From a virus, in the IMG/VR virus record IMGVR_UViG_3300001344_000023, positions 1 to 25,378 of that record: a DNA stretch of 25,378 nucleotides. The stretch is one strand, 5' to 3'. This document shows positions 8,665 to 17,246 of this stretch, piece by piece. The first letter of the stretch is position 1. Every line of letters begins with the position of its first letter. The translations under genes were made by a program, and so were the position numbers. The notes under the pieces are model-generated. The model did not search any database. It was not told the DNA's origin and was given only the letters and a program-made list of their open reading frames with translations.

Positions 8665-10560
8665 TTACATGGACTCACCCCAAGAAGGCCCCATTTCAAT
8701 GTCACATTTGCTAGGGACCTCCAGAGGGAGAACATTCTCCATTATGTTAGCTATTTCTTTTGCTTCGTCAACGCTTTTTACTGACATAGCAATTTCATCG
8801 TGGATTTGTACTAAGGGTAAGTTTCCACTTTTATGTAGGGCTACCATTGCTTTCTTTGTCATATCCGCGGCGGACGCTTGAATAAGCCTGTTCAGCGCTT
8901 TGTAGGTGAACGCCCTTTTAAGACGCGTAGTGGGCCCGTAGGTGGACACAGCTTCCCTGTAAGGCAGGGCTTTGTTCATTGCGAACGTGTCGGGTTCCCA
9001 CATGTCAAACCTGCACTTACGGCCTCCCAGTGAGCGCAGAGCGCCTGCCGACGATTTCTCGTTTAACCTGTTCATGACGCCAGTCATCAGGCCTTTTACG
9101 AACGGGACACGAGTATGGTACTGCTTGACCAGTTTTTTGGCTTCTTCGACAGGAATGTCCAAGCTCTCAGCCATCTTGTTTACGCCCATGCCATACATCA
9201 GACCGAGGTTAATGGTCTTAGCCTGCTTACGTGGAATGTTTGTCATCTCGGCAACCATGGTATGGAAGTCTGTTTCGGGGTCCGTGTTGTATGCTTCGAC
9301 AAACTCGGCCGCCCCTTCTAGAGGAATGCCGCGTGTTTTGCCATAAACATGTGCGTAGTGAACCAAGATGCGTGGTTCTTGCTGCGAGTAATCGATGGCC
9401 GCCCACTGGTCGCCTTCTTCTGGCAGGAACAGACTGCGGATCATGGGACCTAGTTCTGGATCGCGGGCCGGGATTTGTTGGAGGTTGGGGTTCGACATGG
9501 ATATGCGCCCCGATACTGTACCCCCATCGTCTGATCTGATCTGGTTTATGTGCGAATGTATGCGTCCATCTGCACGGCAATGCTTCATGATTGTGTTGAT
9601 AAAGGTGCCTGACGTTTTGTTCAGGTTCCGCGCTTCAACAATCAGCTTGGAAACGGGGTGCGAATGCTCCTGTAAGAAGTGTTTTGTAAACGAGGGCGCA
9701 CCTTTTTCTGTTTTTGGATAAGTTACGTTCAGCTTATCAAAAGCTTTTGAGAGGGACTGTGCCGCCCATATTTCTACGTCGCTTCCCGTGATGCGTTTTA
9801 TTTCTTTCATCACTTCCTTTTCGCGCTTGAGCAGCATGTCTTTTGTGCGTTCAACACGGTTCACGTCAATGCGGACACCCCGCATGGTCATATCAACGAG
9901 GCACGGCAGGAGGTCGAGTTCTGTGTTAGCTATGTCCCAGAGGTCTTCTTTACCTAACTTTGTGGAAAAGTAATTCCAAAGCTCCAGCGTAAGAACGGCA
10001 TCCACTTCGGCATACGGGCCAACATACATGGCGGGCATCTTCCACATCTCGGCTTTCGGATCGACACCAAACTCCCGAGCGGCTTCAACCAGCGCCTTTT
10101 CTGATTTGGTTTTGCCTAAATGCTCGTAAGCTAGAGCGTTAAGGCTGTAACTAAACCTGTTCTCATCAAGCAAGGAGGCTACAAGCATTGTATCGATTAT
10201 GCGGCCGTTGACCGTGAAGCCCATTTGTTTGATCCAGCCCAAGTCGTATTGAGCGTTGTGCATGATCTTATCGGCAGGGCATTCGAACACTTTGCGCAGC
10301 CATTTGTTGACTTGTTTTTCGTCCAGATTACCGCCGCCAAAGTGCCGTATCGGAATGTAACCTGACCACCCGTCAACTGCTACGGCATATCCTACGACTT
10401 CCCCGTCCCCGGTGGGCCACCCGGGCCCATTTCTTTTTAGGTTAGGGTCCCGGGTTTCGACATCAATTGCAATCTTTGATGTGCCCGTAATATCTGGAAG
10501 CTCAAGGGGCGGAACCCATTCACTTTTTGGAGCGAACATTGCCATTTGTAGATTTGCCAT
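8665..10560 (-). CDS. polA: Family A DNA polymerase with 3'-5' exonuclease domain
   Basis: The 631-residue enzyme synthesises phage DNA. The N-terminal DEDD exonuclease shows IAIDVETRDP (D33, E35), then HNAQYDLGWI and YAEVDAVLTLEL. Polymerase motifs are A, AAIDYSQQEPRIL (D390); B, RKQAKTINLGLMYGMG; and C, PLVQIHDEIAMSV (H587, D588, E589). No 5' nuclease domain is present, as usual for phage enzymes. The motif B residue matching Phe762 of E. coli Pol I is Leu452. The ATG at 10560 has GAGG 9 bases upstream and overlaps the preceding gene by 41 bases. It is the last gene of the replication operon. Confidence 0.97.
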   Translation of the reverse strand: MANLQMAMFAPKSEWVPPLELPDITGTSKIAIDVETRDPNLKRNGPGWPTGDGEVVGYAVAVDGWSGYIPIRHFGGGNLDEKQVNKWLRKVFECPADKIMHNAQYDLGWIKQMGFTVNGRIIDTMLVASLLDENRFSYSLNALAYEHLGKTKSEKALVEAAREFGVDPKAEMWKMPAMYVGPYAEVDAVLTLELWNYFSTKLGKEDLWDIANTELDLLPCLVDMTMRGVRIDVNRVERTKDMLLKREKEVMKEIKRITGSDVEIWAAQSLSKAFDKLNVTYPKTEKGAPSFTKHFLQEHSHPVSKLIVEARNLNKTSGTFINTIMKHCRADGRIHSHINQIRSDDGGTVSGRISMSNPNLQQIPARDPELGPMIRSLFLPEEGDQWAAIDYSQQEPRILVHYAHVYGKTRGIPLEGAAEFVEAYNTDPETDFHTMVAEMTNIPRKQAKTINLGLMYGMGVNKMAESLDIPVEEAKKLVKQYHTRVPFVKGLMTGVMNRLNEKSSAGALRSLGGRKCRFDMWEPDTFAMNKALPYREAVSTYGPTTRLKRAFTYKALNRLIQASAADMTKKAMVALHKSGNLPLVQIHDEIAMSVKSVDEAKEIANIMENVLPLEVPSKCDIEMGPSWGESM

Positions 10561-10879
10561 TATTTATTTCCTCAATGATTTTATTTACGGGGCGGGCATC
10601 TCGCTCGACGAATTCCGCTCCCAAACCGGTGTATCCGGCTTTATCTATCCATGAATCCTCATGGTCTATTGTTTCTAACAAACGACTTGTTTTAACCCAG
10701 TCCATCATCAACGTGACGTGGGACGGGGTTACATAACCGTGACTTGTAAGAGCCCCGCGTATGATGACGTTCCAACCATCCGCGATACGAGCATGATTAT
10801 CGTAAGCATCGCCGTAATCTTTGGCCCGGTCCCCGTTAATCAGGGATTTTGCTGCATCCAGCACTTCATCTCGTTTCAT
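10520..10879 (-). CDS. DUF6378-like small phage protein
   Basis: The 119-residue protein starts MKRDEVLDAAKSLINGDRAK, then DYGDAYDNHARIADGWNVII. It continues with a THVTLMM-type helix followed by DWVKTSRL and DSWIDKAGYTGLGAEF. The order GDRAxDYGDA, xxIAxxW, MMxxxKxxRL, DSWxDxAGYxxLG is what I recall for DUF6378, common in phages and near nucleotide or DNA metabolism genes; no activity is established to my knowledge. Its start overlaps the preceding stop (ATGA) and its end overlaps the polymerase start by 41 bases. Confidence 0.8.
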   Translation of the reverse strand: MKRDEVLDAAKSLINGDRAKDYGDAYDNHARIADGWNVIIRGALTSHGYVTPSHVTLMMDWVKTSRLLETIDHEDSWIDKAGYTGLGAEFVERDARPVNKIIEEINNGKSTNGNVRSKK

Positions 10880-11307
10880 GTTTTAAATACCCGGCCTTTT
10901 CTTTTTTTCCACGCCTTAATCTTATGCTCGGACACTCCCTTTTCACGAAGCGCCTTCAACAACTCCTCCGAGAAGGCGTGGCCTATGCCATACACCTCTC
11001 TGTACCATCGGGGGGTTGTTGTATCTATGAACTCCTCAAACGTCATGCTGTCGGCTCCGTAAGATTTTAACCCGCTACTGAGTTGTACCGACAACATTAA
11101 ATCTCCAATAGTTGTGGCGTTCTTATGACGATTCACCCGTCCTGCTTCCCTGCGCCCCGCGGCGACACGCTGTCTTGCACGTTCTAAAGAGACGCCTCCC
11201 AGCGCCTTTGCAACTTCTCGGTATTTTTTTCCGGACAACCGCAGATCAAGTGCATATTGATTCAGTTTAATCCTACGGACGGAGGGATTTCCTCTAACAC
11301 GTTTCAT
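10876..11307 (-). CDS. Sigma-4.2-like HTH fused to an RNA polymerase alpha-CTD-like domain
   Basis: This 143-residue protein has two recognisable parts. About residues 28-55, KKYREVAKALGG then VSLERARQRVAAGRRE, match the HTH of sigma region 4.2 (xxREVAxxLGVSRERVRQxxxxA). Residues about 67-125, from IGDLMLSVQLSSGLKSYG to YGIGHAFSEELLKAL, align with the bacterial RNA polymerase alpha C-terminal domain. The order DLxLxV-xxxxxLK, helix, GxxxxxEL, L-xxxG matches E. coli alpha about residues 258-315. That domain binds DNA and activators. The protein follows the sigma-4 gene directly (TAAATG) with GGAGG upstream. It is probably a transcription regulator acting on host RNA polymerase; the alpha-CTD reading rests on my alignment by eye. 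Confidence 0.65.
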   Translation of the reverse strand: MKRVRGNPSVRRIKLNQYALDLRLSGKKYREVAKALGGVSLERARQRVAAGRREAGRVNRHKNATTIGDLMLSVQLSSGLKSYGADSMTFEEFIDTTTPRWYREVYGIGHAFSEELLKALREKGVSEHKIKAWKKRKGRVFKT

Positions 11308-11982
11308 TTAATCCTCCAATAAATCTTGACCAAGAGGTTTAAGAGATAATTCAAGTTTCACGCCAAAATCCCGGTCCGACCCCCAGCGGAAACCCCTCTT
11401 CGTTTCCCAATTGTACGGCTCCCGTGTAGGGTTCTTAACATCCATATACCCAAGATCGGACGCAACCTTGCGCATTTTCCGAAGAGCCTTAGCCTCTATC
11501 TGACGAACCCTATCTCGGGAAACCCTCAAAGATGCAGCGCACTCTTCCAAACTCTGGTCATGCGCAAACCGCCGAGCTAAAACATCCCGCTCCCGAGGAG
11601 TCAGTTTCTGAGCAAAATGATTTATTGCACTCAACTGCGAAATAGTCTTTTCCGACGAACCCTCCTGAACCAACTTCTTCACGTCGTCCAAATCAAGATT
11701 AACCTCAGAGGTAGACTTCCGCAAAGAAAGCTCACGCATGTGATTCGGCCACAAATCCTCCGGATCCCGGCCAACCATCCCCGCAATGTCCAAAGCTAAA
11801 TCCGACCAACCCTTAGAATTATACGGAACCGCCTTCATCGTAATTAACTTATTTACCGTCTGTTGCGAACGACCCATCTTTCGGCACATGTCCGCAACAG
11901 AAGAATAACGCTCACGTATCGCACGAAGTAACCTCCCATTGCGAACAGTTACCTTTAAATTAAAATCTTCATCTCGTTTCAA
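11308..11982 (-). CDS. XRE-like HTH plus sigma-70 region 4 protein
   Basis: Start TTG 11982 overlaps the preceding stop (TTGA) and has GAGG 7 bases upstream. Residues about 14-80 form an XRE-type HTH (SSVADMCRKMGRSQQTVNKL, then LALDIAGMVGRDPEDLWP). Residues about 126-170 are a classic sigma-70 region 4: LTPRERDVLARRFA, then SLEECAASLRVSRDRVRQIE followed by AKALRKMRK. Region 2, which recognises -10 and melts DNA, is missing, so this is not a complete sigma factor. A region 4 module could contact the RNA polymerase beta flap, as phage co-activators do. It sits immediately before the HTH/alpha-CTD-like gene. Confidence 0.8.
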   Translation of the reverse strand: MKRDEDFNLKVTVRNGRLLRAIRERYSSVADMCRKMGRSQQTVNKLITMKAVPYNSKGWSDLALDIAGMVGRDPEDLWPNHMRELSLRKSTSEVNLDLDDVKKLVQEGSSEKTISQLSAINHFAQKLTPRERDVLARRFAHDQSLEECAASLRVSRDRVRQIEAKALRKMRKVASDLGYMDVKNPTREPYNWETKRGFRWGSDRDFGVKLELSLKPLGQDLLED

Positions 11983-12197
11983 TGTTTCACCTCATTACTG
12001 TAACCAACAAAAACCATTTCTTTTAATTCGGGATCGTATTCGAACCGAGCGGCAGGCAGGTCCTCATCTTTTACTGTGGGATCGTTCCACATCTTTTCTG
12101 CCCGCACTGCGTTAAGATCGGTCACGCCCATCTCTTCGTATTCCTTGCGTTTGGCTTCTTCGTGCGCTTTCCAGTCATCCCATGTCATCTTTTTCAA
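11979..12197 (-). CDS. Small acidic phage protein, 72 residues
   Basis: It starts at TTG 12197, overlapping the previous stop (TTGA), with GGAG 7 bases upstream; the ATG three codons later is less well placed. The sequence (MKKMTWDDWKAHEEAKRKEY) begins with a charged helix, continues through DLNAVRAEKMWNDPT and ends in a compact acidic region. No family or motif is recognised. Its tight coupling to the winged-helix-like gene before and the sigma-4 gene after suggests a role in replication or its regulation. Confidence 0.65.
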   Translation of the reverse strand: MKKMTWDDWKAHEEAKRKEYEEMGVTDLNAVRAEKMWNDPTVKDEDLPAARFEYDPELKEMVFVGYSNEVKH

Positions 12198-12538
12198 GAC
12201 TTCTCTCCTTTAAACAATTTACTTTCCCATTGGCACACTTCGTTAATGTGCGTGTGCCGTGTAGTAGGACGCACCATCCCAACCTTTTCAACCCACCCCA
12301 ACTTCCGAAGAGACGCCATCATTGCGCCCCAAACATTGTGATGGTGGGGGTCCGACATACCCTGCGCTCTACAAAAAGCACAGATTTTGCCACCTTCCAC
12401 GAACTGGTGTTCCGATAAATATTTGGCAGCGTTCTGGTAATATTCCTGCTTCCACTCATCATCCGCGTGGACATAGGCGCGGTCTATCTCAGCTTCGATA
12501 AATTCGAACCGCTGTTGTTCTGAAAGGGCTTCTGTCAT
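12194..12538 (-). CDS. Conserved phage protein, possible winged helix, 114 residues
   Basis: The N-terminal half is a helical acidic region (LSEQQRFEFIEAEIDRAYV). The second half carries CAFCRAQGMSDPHHHNVWGA, then LRKLGWVEKVG and MVRPTTRHTHINEV before CQWESKLF. The pattern of a helix, HHHNVWGA, xLxxLGWV, then a beta hairpin with RPTTRHTH and W-ES-LF is one I remember from small phage proteins encoded near replication genes. It reads as a winged helix. The CAFC pair and histidines might bind metal. Start ATG overlaps the helicase stop (ATGA). Confidence 0.7.
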   Translation of the reverse strand: MTEALSEQQRFEFIEAEIDRAYVHADDEWKQEYYQNAAKYLSEHQFVEGGKICAFCRAQGMSDPHHHNVWGAMMASLRKLGWVEKVGMVRPTTRHTHINEVCQWESKLFKGEKS

Positions 12539-14052
12539 AGGTCATAGCTCCTTGTCGCGTCTTCGGGTTCAACAATATACAAATTCTGCCGGGTACGCGT
12601 AACGCCGACATAAAAAACTCGGTGCATATCATCAGGGTTAATTTGCATATCATTATCGGCAGCCGCACTTAGGTCCGTGAACAGTACAACGTTGTCCGCC
12701 TCGCCGCCCTTTGATCCGTGGATCGTGGAGGCTGTAATACGGGGTATGCCGTTAAACTTCTCGCCCCGACGTAGCAGGGCCGTGACATATGCCCGGTCAG
12801 TCTCGGGCATCTTATCCATAGCTTCGGACCAAATCATGCTGTCATTGGCAAGTAGGCCGTGGTTACTGATTAACTCTTCTATGGTCACCATGTCTTGGTC
12901 ATCTAAGTCTCGAAGCTTTTTATATCCTCGCGTTATGCGGTTTCCGGTAGACATGTAGCTGTATATCTTGCGGGCTACCTCTCCAGAGATTTCTTTGCCT
13001 TTCCGCATTTGCTCCCAACCATTAACCGCATCAGATACTTTTTCGCTAATGGACCGATGGCCGCGATAAGTAAACAAATAACCGTTTGATTTCAGGTCAC
13101 TAGCAACAGGTTGCAGTTGATAACCGGCTTGAGAAAGAATTAGCCAAGAGCCTTGCGCCATGTCGAGCGAACTTATATGATTGATCCGCGCCACATTGCC
13201 TCGGTCGGGTTTTGGATCATATCTTTTCGGGAACCTCCGCGTGATGCGGCGCACGACATTCTCCGCCAGACTATGAACAGTTTTTGGAACGCGGTATGAC
13301 TGCGAAAGGGTTTCAGAGCCGCCGGGTAGGTTTATAAAGTGGTCTACGTCTGCGCCTGCCCAACGGTAAATGGCTTGGTCATCGTCTCCCGCGCAGTACA
13401 TGCGTTTAGAGTTTTCATCTAATATGTGGGCAATGTCCCATTGTAGGGGGGACAGGTCCTGCGCTTCATCTAAAAAGCACAGATCAAATTGCGGGCAGTA
13501 ATTGTTCTCACCTGATACAAACTGTTCTAGCATGTCCGTAAAATCGTAGACCCCGATTTTTTCCTTATATTCTTTCAAGCATTTATCGACATAGTTGACG
13601 GTATTCCAATCGGCTTCAAGGCTGCTGATGTTGTACTGATCCCGAAGCTTTACCTTGCGTAACCTTGCGAGGTTAATTATCCCCAAAATAGGATCGTTAC
13701 TCGAAACCATAGACGGCACGTCATCGTCAAAGCTGGTGTTCTTTGCCCCGCCCAGCGATATGCCAATCTTTTTACTAAGCTCTTTGTAATTATCCTCCTG
13801 CATTACCTGTTCTGGGCGTATGTCCGTCATCGTCAAAGCCAGCGAGTGTAGGGTGCGGAAGTGAACCAAGTCTTTCTTGGGGTCCAGACCGAAACGTTCT
13901 GCCGCCCGTTCTTTGGCTTCGTTTGCCGCCTTGCGAGTAAATGCTAGAAAAGCAATGCGGTGGGGAGATGTTCCGTTCTCCAAGGCCTCGTCAACCATGT
14001 TGAGAAGTGTGGTTGTTTTACCTGTTCCGGGCGGTCCAAATATTCTAAACAT
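12535..14052 (-). CDS. UvrD/PcrA-like superfamily 1 DNA helicase
   Basis: The 505-residue helicase has its motifs in order. Walker A is FGPPGTGKTTTL at the N-terminus (residues 5-16), Ia-like FLAFTRKAANEAKER, Walker B LCFLDEAQDLSP, and III AGDDDQAIYRWAG. Then come IV LSQSYRVPKTV, V ASTIHGSKGGEADNVVLF and VI RVFYVGVTRTRQNLYIV. It should unwind duplex DNA 3' to 5' using ATP. Start ATG 14052 is preferred to 14106, because the longer form would add residues that lie in the 50-residue HTH gene in another frame. It is shorter than UvrD (about 720), with reduced accessory domains, as usual in phages. No DnaB-type helicase is visible. Confidence 0.93.
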   Translation of the reverse strand: MFRIFGPPGTGKTTTLLNMVDEALENGTSPHRIAFLAFTRKAANEAKERAAERFGLDPKKDLVHFRTLHSLALTMTDIRPEQVMQEDNYKELSKKIGISLGGAKNTSFDDDVPSMVSSNDPILGIINLARLRKVKLRDQYNISSLEADWNTVNYVDKCLKEYKEKIGVYDFTDMLEQFVSGENNYCPQFDLCFLDEAQDLSPLQWDIAHILDENSKRMYCAGDDDQAIYRWAGADVDHFINLPGGSETLSQSYRVPKTVHSLAENVVRRITRRFPKRYDPKPDRGNVARINHISSLDMAQGSWLILSQAGYQLQPVASDLKSNGYLFTYRGHRSISEKVSDAVNGWEQMRKGKEISGEVARKIYSYMSTGNRITRGYKKLRDLDDQDMVTIEELISNHGLLANDSMIWSEAMDKMPETDRAYVTALLRRGEKFNGIPRITASTIHGSKGGEADNVVLFTDLSAAADNDMQINPDDMHRVFYVGVTRTRQNLYIVEPEDATRSYDL

Positions 14053-14197
14053 CTTCTGCTTTAGCCTTTTTGTAGATTTGTTGAACACGCTGCTTTGAAA
14101 TGCCAAACCACTTTGCGACAGCGGTCATGGTCACGTGTTGCTCGTCGATTAGACGAACTATCTCAGCGTTGCGGACGGCTTTAAGTACGTTTGACAT
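14045..14197 (-). CDS. 50-residue sigma-4.2-like HTH protein
   Basis: The frame reads MSNVLKAVRNAEIVRLIDEQ, continues HVTMTAVAKWFGISKQRVQQ and ends IYKKAKAEDV. The VAKWFGISKQRVQQIYKKA part is a clear HTH of the sigma region 4.2/RpoE type. The ATG shares a base with the primase stop (TAATG) and the stop overlaps the helicase start by 8 bases, so it is tightly coupled in the operon. It is easily missed because of its size and because the helicase frame can be extended through it. It is the third protein in this operon with a sigma-4.2-like HTH. It is probably a DNA-binding regulator or a replication accessory factor. Confidence 0.75.
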   Translation of the reverse strand: MSNVLKAVRNAEIVRLIDEQHVTMTAVAKWFGISKQRVQQIYKKAKAEDV

Positions 14198-15735
14198 TAG
14201 AATGGAGCCTCTTGCTGTGAACCAAACTTGGGTGGATCAATATCAATATCAACGTTGTCAAACGAAGGTATCTGCCATACGCGCACGGCACGTCCCTTTA
14301 TCTTCATGACAAGGCTGCTTCCGTTTATGTCGCGTAGGCGTTGAGCTATTCGGTGGGATTTATATTCAAAGAATTTATTCTTTTTCAGGAAGTTCTCAAA
14401 GTCTTTGAGCCGGAAGTAAGTGGTGTTTACCTCTTCATCTGTCCAAGGCTTACGAAGTAAGATTTCCTCTTTATCCTGCGCAACCTGTAGGTGGGCGCAA
14501 AACTCTTCCAAATAATCGTAGAACTGTCCGCTTATGCTGGCATCCTGCGCGACTTCAATGATAGCGCTCTCGTTATCCTTCATCTCGCTCAACAATGTGC
14601 TAATGCGGCTTTCCCATTGTTGCTTGGCAACGGAGCGTGGCATGAAGTTAAGTTGTTCCATGCAGGCTTTTTGAAAGGTGGGCTGGTTCATAAGAGCGTC
14701 TGTGTCCATTTCCAGAGGCTCGCCGTTAACGTCCATAAACCAGACCGGGGGAGTAGAGTTATACTTGCGGAGGTTTGCGATTGTGGCCCCGGCTACGGCG
14801 GCTCCTATGCCGAACTTACGTGTCCGACATAGGTCTTTGTTGCAGTGCGAATTGATCGGTGCATCAGAACATTTGTATGCATAATCTTTCCGCTCTACTT
14901 GTTTGGCAACAACGTTTACCTCCGACAGTGGTAGTGGCGGAGAAATGTACTCCATGTTGAAGCGGAGTATTTCGGACTCCCAGCTATCTGGATATGCCTT
15001 TCGTAAGTACACGCCAATGTTGAACAGACCATTATTACGTCCTCCTTCACTAATACCTGCTTTGCACAGTATCTGTAGACAAGGCGGACCGTCTTTTAGT
15101 AGGTCGGTTTCGCCGCCCCCTACTACTTGAAGCTTAACGATTTGTTCCGGAGTTTGTACATGTTTCTCGTATAGTTCTATAAATTCATCTAAGGTGGCAG
15201 ACGTGCCATCGTCCAAAAACGCGTAGCGCAATCCGTTCTCATGGTCGTAGTATGGTAGGTTTAAGAAGTTGCCTACGTCTCCACGATCAAGGTGCAGCTT
15301 TATTTGCTTTGGAAATATCTCGCTCTCGCCGTATCCGAGGGCCGCGGCTATTGATTGCAGGGCCTTCTGCATGTCCTTGGCCTCTGTCCAACCGCTGGAG
15401 AACAGGAAGCAGTGCGCTCCGCCCGACTTAGATCGGCAAACCACCATCGGTATTTTTAACCTGCGTATTTTATCGACAAGTATTTTATGATCCAAAGGGT
15501 ACTGATCGATATCAATGCAGCCCCATTTGCAACAGTTGTCTTCATTGATGGGGATGATACCTAGCCCGGCTCCTGCCCCTGAGAGGTGATTGTCCCAAAG
15601 TTTTTCGTCGCGTGGTTCTCTAAGAATGCCCGCTTTGCCCTTGGCCTTACCGTTTGCCCCTGTATTTTCTATTTTGAAGTAGCCGTATGCTTCCTTCAAA
15701 CCATCGAAGATGGCCATAAACTTTTCTGCTGACAT
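14197..15735 (-). CDS. AEP-superfamily DNA primase with C-terminal zinc motif
   Basis: ATG 15735 (MSAEKFMAIFDGLKEAYGYF) is chosen because GGGGG lies about 6 bases upstream; an open frame continues to 15771 through the hairpin before it. The 512-residue protein shows the archaeo-eukaryotic primase core: WGCIDIDQYP with the DxD pair (D75, D77), SKSGGAHCFLF with the catalytic His (H108), and a later strand EIFPKQIKLHLDRG. A PriCT-like helical region follows (RNNGLFNIGVYLRKAYPD). Then comes a cysteine group, KCSDAPINSHCNKDLCRTRK, fitting a zinc site. It makes RNA or DNA primers for the family A polymerase. The tail ends QQEAPF. Confidence 0.85.
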   Translation of the reverse strand: MSAEKFMAIFDGLKEAYGYFKIENTGANGKAKGKAGILREPRDEKLWDNHLSGAGAGLGIIPINEDNCCKWGCIDIDQYPLDHKILVDKIRRLKIPMVVCRSKSGGAHCFLFSSGWTEAKDMQKALQSIAAALGYGESEIFPKQIKLHLDRGDVGNFLNLPYYDHENGLRYAFLDDGTSATLDEFIELYEKHVQTPEQIVKLQVVGGGETDLLKDGPPCLQILCKAGISEGGRNNGLFNIGVYLRKAYPDSWESEILRFNMEYISPPLPLSEVNVVAKQVERKDYAYKCSDAPINSHCNKDLCRTRKFGIGAAVAGATIANLRKYNSTPPVWFMDVNGEPLEMDTDALMNQPTFQKACMEQLNFMPRSVAKQQWESRISTLLSEMKDNESAIIEVAQDASISGQFYDYLEEFCAHLQVAQDKEEILLRKPWTDEEVNTTYFRLKDFENFLKKNKFFEYKSHRIAQRLRDINGSSLVMKIKGRAVRVWQIPSFDNVDIDIDPPKFGSQQEAPF

Positions 15736-15750
15736 TATTGCCCCCACTCG

Positions 15751-15781
15751 AAAGAAAACGGCGGGGCACAATTACCCCGCC
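15751..15781 (-). terminator. Intrinsic terminator or attenuator between SSB-like and primase genes
   Basis: A perfect 7-bp stem, GGCGGGG (15775-15781 complement) with CCCCGCC (15760-15766 complement), is followed on the minus strand by GTTTTCTTT. It lies 15 bases before the primase start, leaving no room for a separate promoter. Partial termination would give more SSB-like protein than primase. Confidence 0.75.
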
Positions 15782-17205: not shown

Positions 17206-17233
17206 TTGACAAATACGGATAATATCGTATACT
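17206..17233 (+). promoter_or_regulatory. Promoter for the SNF2-like helicase gene
   Basis: TTGACA (17206-17211), a 16-base spacer and TATACT (17228-17233) drive the plus-strand gene starting at 17268. The spacer contains ACGGATAATATCGT, a copy of the recurrent operator-like motif. Confidence 0.8.
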
Positions 17234-17246
17234 CCGCTCTTGTCAA
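17219..17246 (-). promoter_or_regulatory. Divergent promoter for the replication operon
   Basis: On the minus strand TTGACA (17241-17246), a 16-base spacer and TATTAT (17219-17224) drive the operon that starts at 17167. Its -10 lies inside the operator-like motif and it shares about 15 bases with the plus-strand promoter, so polymerase can probably occupy only one at a time. Confidence 0.8.

Follow-up and report, generated by a model that had tools for sequence, protein, structure and literature searches.

Small proteins of uncultured phages that join a sigma 4.2-type helix-turn-helix to an alpha-CTD-like domain

The C-terminal domain of the alpha subunit of bacterial RNA polymerase (alpha-CTD) grips DNA upstream of the −35 box and touches region 4 of sigma; both parts are known targets of phages, by binding or by chemical modification. 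In phage T4, sigma is appropriated by AsiA and MotA, and alpha is modified by Alt and ModA (PMC2988021, PMC6755090). The T4 proteins concern the same two upstream promoter-reading parts as the proteins described here, but they bind or modify the parts of the host, whereas the phage group analyzed here encodes relatives of the parts themselves, i.e., of sigma region 4 and alpha-CTD, fused within about 120 residues.

Domains resembling alpha-CTD, as in this fusion, also occur in proteins of Bacillus phage Goe8, Microbacterium phage Mazun (gp26) and Ruegeria phage V16 (gp23), which differ in having other partner sequences and, by eye, no sigma 4.2 helix-turn-helix (HTH); we found no characterization of these three proteins. 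The combination of a sigma region 4 with an alpha-CTD exists elsewhere too: the gut contig MT835636, which is labelled as a phage, encodes a 332-aa protein (P0001; L117, positions 928-1923) with HTH_17, Sigma70_r4 and RNA_pol_A_CTD domains, all over the Pfam cut-off. This protein is longer than the fusions and lies in another context, in a record that is unverified, and a search of GTDB genomes returned no relatives of it.

The DNA analyzed here (the window) comprises 25,378 bases, a single phage record of IMG/VR. Its preliminary description had singled out two neighboring genes, one for a protein with sigma-70 region 4 and one for a sigma 4.2 HTH followed by an alpha-CTD-like segment, and had suggested that together they may rebuild promoter recognition on host polymerase. 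The domain combination proved true and unusual, while the two-gene system was left without support. Both genes are part of a leftward operon with the order gp33-like, gp34-like, AEP primase, 50-aa HTH, UvrD-like helicase, small genes, 224-aa gene, 143-aa gene, DUF6378 and PolA (Table 1), in which the gp33-like and gp34-like genes represent Pam3 phage families. The nearest named complete relative is Phage DSL-LC04, with 50% and 45% identity for primase and helicase in tblastn searches. Its 61.5-kb record has no RNA polymerase annotation, so phages of this type probably rely on the host polymerase.

Table 1. Features of the window with their positions, strand and supporting evidence.
Feature	Position	Strand	Evidence or remark
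Family A DNA polymerase	8665..10560	-	downstream border of slot
DUF6378 gene	10520..10879	-	first gene downstream of cassette
143-aa HTH + alpha-CTD-like protein	10876..11307	-	divergent member of sigma 4.2/alpha-CTD family; profile, AlphaFold/Foldseek, hhalign
Alpha-CTD-like domain of 143-aa protein (residues 64-126)	10930..11118	-	R265, N268, C269, N294, K298, S299 equivalents replaced
Sigma 4.2-type HTH of 143-aa protein (residues 27-57)	11137..11229	-	family HMM alignment from residue 27
224-aa HTH + sigma region 4 protein, without region 2	11308..11982	-	PF04545 2.4e-15; relatives
Sigma-70 region 4 of 224-aa protein (residues 125-172)	11467..11610	-	PF04545
UvrD-like helicase	12535..14106	-	upstream border of cassette slot
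50-aa HTH in primase-helicase gap	14045..14197	-	HTH-only form of fusion family; PF04545 1e-5, over cut-off
AEP primase	14197..15771	-	upstream border of gap where fusion family is usually found
Palindromic bidirectional sigma-70-type promoter	17206..17246		upstream of operon; possible target

A fusion family in uncultured phages

To survey the phage group, 80 relatives fetched by their polymerase were searched with an HMM of bacterial and phage alpha-CTDs, which matched small ORFs with E-values from 6e-21 to 3e-4, several of them starting with a sigma 4.2-type HTH. Expansion from these ORFs led to a family of proteins of about 115-190 aa. Pfam itself assigns both domains over the cut-off in the 121-aa protein of L130 (RNA_pol_A_CTD 3.5e-9, Sigma70_r4 4.2e-7) and in L157 (6.2e-6 and 8.8e-8, respectively), and searches of whole records with PF03118 and PF04545 found both domains within the same open frame in six records. 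A profile made from the family alignment, window protein included, matches solved host alpha-CTD chains with its C-terminal half (from 8e-8) and region 4 chains of sigma factors with its N-terminal half (from 1.7e-5). With dN/dS values of 0.05-0.31, the family is under purifying selection. Thus, the sigma 4.2/alpha-CTD fusion is a real and recurrent family in uncultured phages, of which a full-length member was found in no phage of the annotated collection. The family appears to be undescribed; the literature searched, which covered few subscription journals and is therefore weak evidence of novelty, held no description of a phage alpha-CTD fusion.

Compared with bacterial alpha-CTD (PF03118), the family shares the fold, and R265, N268, N294, G296 and E302 are kept in most of its members, but it has no alpha-NTD, is fused to an HTH and carries an insertion of two to three residues. 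With sigma-70 region 4 (PF04545) it shares an HTH, in which SRERVRQ or TRERVRQ is the usual sequence of the recognition helix, as in sigma 4.2; it differs in having no region 2 and mainly the 4.2 part, the full region 4 being found in the 224-aa protein of the window.

The usual position of the family, in nearly all members with visible context, is the gap between primase and helicase. Among 85 distinct gaps of this kind, 34 hold an HTH/alpha-CTD fusion, 21 an HTH only and 30 neither, counts that are inflated by targeted family searches; when only the polymerase was used to fetch loci, a minority of them had fusions (L052, L053, L054, L063, L086 and L093). In the window, the usual gap is occupied by the 50-aa HTH, and the fusion sits between helicase and polymerase instead.

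The order of the two domains can also be reversed. In L091 (7495-8019, minus strand) the alpha-CTD comes first and is followed by the sigma 4.2 HTH, again with both Pfam matches over the cut-off (RNA_pol_A_CTD 3e-19, Sigma70_r4 4e-7); on the basis of this order the combination may have more than one origin.

The divergent copy in the window

The 143-aa reading frame of the window is intact, and identical copies of its protein are present in three IMG/VR contigs, with no match elsewhere by direct search; two of these, L001 and L018 (L018 and L002 are one contig), match the window with a DNA identity of at least 99.9% and were counted as the same phage. Direct searches of phages, plasmids, GTDB genome contigs and PDB sequences with the protein gave nothing significant. 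Neither Pfam nor NCBIfam nor a direct PF03118 search detected an alpha-CTD (nothing matched at E≤1, and a single-record search with working controls stayed empty even at E≤10), because the domain is too divergent.

Evidence for its membership comes from the family profile. An HMM built without the window protein matches it over both domains with 27.3 bits (E-value 2.6e-6 among 15,207 ORFs), a score that none of 5000 shuffled sequences reached, the best shuffle having 9.5 bits. For the C-terminal half alone the score is 14.1 bits, against 9.2 for the best shuffle, and for the N-terminal half alone it is 6.7 bits, which 3 of 5000 shuffles reached; split sub-profiles give the protein weaker support (E-values 0.004 and 1.8). 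Likewise, hhalign with the single window sequence gave 93% for the whole family and 76% and 59% for either sub-family alone. The alignment of the protein to the family is collinear and contains the shared insertion of two to three residues missing from bacterial alpha-CTD. The resemblance between the C-terminus and alpha-CTD that had been noted at the outset is also real, with a z-score of 4.8 against a Bacillus reference sequence and of only 1.4 and 1.1 against the E. coli and M. tuberculosis references.

Structure prediction points the same way. An AlphaFold model made with the family alignment (pLDDT 79.3, pTM 0.55) has as its best natural PDB match the B. subtilis alpha-CTD 3gfk_B (probability 1.00, rmsd 2.4, 31% identity) with a poor Foldseek E-value of 0.22, and it also matches SigR region 4 (probability 0.90) with a likewise poor E-value of 2.9. 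Since the model was built on the family alignment, it is not independent evidence; without an alignment the prediction is uninformative (pLDDT 46). Taken with the profile match, the description of this protein as a sigma 4.2 HTH plus alpha-CTD-like protein is borne out, and we consider it very probably a member of the fusion family, albeit a divergent one.

The roles in E. coli of the alpha-CTD and sigma 4.2 residues that define the contacts are established. In the window protein, R265, N268, N294, G296 and E302 are represented by Q, S, G, G and E, and K298 and S299 by A and F. Thus, it has lost most of the alpha-CTD contact residues: the equivalents of R265, N268 and N294, which most of its relatives keep, and those of C269, K298 and S299 are replaced, with G296 and E302 kept; R265 is discussed in PMC2988021. 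Its recognition helix reads SLERARQ, in which the first arginine of the −35 reading helix is missing. With these losses the copy may no longer read the same DNA, and relative to its family it is a degenerate reader.

The neighboring sigma-like gene and a variable cassette slot

The adjoining reading frame is likewise intact and encodes, from a TTG start, a 224-aa protein. Sigma70_r4 matches it with 2.4e-15 over profile positions 3-50 of 50, and a region 2 model (core binding, −10 recognition) is not among its domain matches. The initial reading, a sigma-70 region 4 behind an XRE HTH and no region 2, therefore stands for region 4 and for the missing region 2; for the N-terminal HTH (residues 16-54), several HTH models match with E-values of 3e-4 to 0.03, all under the Pfam cut-offs, so that its XRE identity is no more than plausible. 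The gene is present in full in 14 other IMG/VR loci and as end-of-contig pieces in two more; two loci with the gene (L001 and L002) are the window's own phage and the others are relatives, among which its dN/dS is 0.21-0.33. The 224-aa protein (SRDRVRQIEAKALRKMR) is a better candidate for a −35 reader than the 143-aa protein of the window. The sigma matches inspected in the phage collection were full-length rpoD-type genes, one of them flanked by host housekeeping genes. In two contigs that also carry the sigma-like gene, a 309-aa protein (L012, 307-1233; L016, 1033-1959) has a sigma 4.2-like HTH followed by apparent further HTH segments.

A survey of related phages showed that the two genes occur together only in near-identical copies of the window's own phage. 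In thirteen relatives (L003-L015) the fusion gene is missing, and the sigma gene is followed by DUF6378, directly or past a short unrelated ORF, although some of these contigs end shortly after the sigma gene. Conversely, in L017 the gene preceding the fusion is a short cysteine-rich ORF, and no sigma gene is present in the 30.4-kb, perhaps incomplete, record of this phage; a second fusion protein of 187 aa is found in its primase-helicase gap. None of the sigma-gene contigs with a visible primase-helicase gap has a fusion in that gap. The fusion genes of L017 and the window's phage are identical in 428 of 430 bases, whereas the alignment block that holds this gene and the polymerase is 74% identical overall, indicating a recent cassette transfer.

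Across the relatives, the slot between helicase and polymerase (10876-12535 in the window) holds many different small genes and is thus a hypervariable cassette slot. The cassette starts with ATGAAACG, eight bases with which both the fusion gene and the next gene begin, and cassettes may thus be exchanged by way of short homology at gene starts. Thus, the pairing of the fusion gene with the sigma-like gene is a chance neighborhood and not a system, and we infer that the 224-aa protein is a regulator in its own right, of broadly the same kind, set beside the fusion by cassette shuffling.

These observations bear directly on a joint action of the 224-aa and 143-aa proteins on host polymerase for promoter recognition, the idea with which the locus had been introduced. 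Adjacency in one operon and the match to the two upstream DNA-reading parts of polymerase speak for it, but with 13 relatives having the sigma gene only and one the fusion gene only, with a fusion cassette that recently moved by itself, with no fusion in the gap of any sigma-gene contig where that gap is visible, and with the alpha-CTD DNA contacts of the window copy largely gone, we consider it very improbable. What remains of the claim that the phage codes for both promoter-reading parts is that relatives of both exist and are fused in one protein; a rebuilding of promoter recognition is weak for the window copy but may apply to its relatives.

A bidirectional promoter and the possible role of the family

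The gp33-like gene of the operon and a divergent SNF2 helicase gene are separated by a region with a 41-bp palindrome, TTGACA...TGTCAA, which consists of two interleaved near-consensus sigma-70 promoters reading outward, with 11/12 matches each. About 20 distinct relatives have this arrangement at the corresponding position, with a span of 40-41 bp; a loose form of the pattern arises by chance 0.37 times per shuffled window. In E. coli, bidirectional promoters have been studied as a class (PMC12825309). Since a sigma 4.2 HTH would be expected to recognize TTGACA boxes, autoregulation is an obvious possibility, and this promoter is possibly a target of the fusion proteins. The palindrome is also present in phages without a fusion in the gap, e.g., L048, L085 and L092, so that the promoter is independent of the fusion and the link between them is hypothetical.

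From the domain make-up of the family we favor small DNA-binding regulators of host-polymerase promoters as the best explanation, to which we give a probability of about one half. For DNA target, polymerase contact and direction of effect we infer the following. One small phage regulator would combine the −35 reader of sigma, a 4.2-type HTH, with an alpha-CTD; as it has neither an alpha-NTD nor a sigma region 2, it probably does not become a polymerase subunit, and the free protein would bind promoter DNA and help or block the host sigma-70 polymerase. Its natural target could be the conserved bidirectional TTGACA promoter, which apparently drives its own operon, and the outcome there might be autoregulation or a switch between directions. 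In line with a regulator, the operon promoter looks like a host sigma-70 promoter and DSL-LC04 has no annotated RNA polymerase. The full form of this proposal, in which a free fusion, in widespread uncultured phages, controls host sigma-70 polymerase at the bidirectional promoter by bridging DNA and sigma, is put forward tentatively.

The position among replication genes fits a role in replication too. Helix-hairpin-helix domains are common in replication proteins, and the fusion could be a DNA-binding accessory, e.g., an origin binder or a recruiter of primase and helicase to the origin, whose resemblance to sigma and alpha-CTD reflects generic HTH and helix-hairpin-helix DNA binding; this would fit the gene position, which in nearly all members with visible context is between the AEP primase and the UvrD-like helicase. 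However, Pfam specifically gives Sigma70_r4 and RNA_pol_A_CTD, both over the cut-off, the alpha-CTD contact residues are retained in most members, and many phages of the group have no fusion, which is therefore not an essential replication part, so that we regard this role as possible but doubtful. Alternatively, the proteins could be decoys that bind host sigma-70, the beta flap or host −35/UP sites and thereby block host transcription. T4 Alt, ModA and AsiA are well-known examples of phage proteins directed against region 4 and alpha-CTD (PMC2988021), and the lost DNA contacts of the window copy would suit a protein-binding role; since the DNA-contact residues are retained in most relatives, and the gene lies in the replication operon of most members and not among early host-takeover genes, shut-off of the host is rather unlikely.

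If the family is active on promoters as a regulator, it offers a minimal natural test of both modules detached from polymerase, in the form of a very small regulator. In addition, a recurrent class of small ORFs next to primase and helicase genes of phages, so far unnamed, gains a name and a testable role.

Some existing labels in and around these operons call for care. WJZ48105.1 of DSL-LC04 (L118, 9405-9662; OR003939), annotated as "RNA polymerase sigma-G factor", and a "DNA-directed RNA polymerase" near the primase-helicase gap of ct3Et533 were considered as fusion homologs and rejected by eye, as neither shows the HTH or the alpha-CTD. The former resembles by eye the 82-aa MLKADGYN-type small protein of the relatives and shows no sigma HTH, and its label is a probable misannotation. 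For the 119-aa DUF6378 protein, two matching families are called "phosphofructokinase" in PHROGs, a label that looks doubtful at this length.
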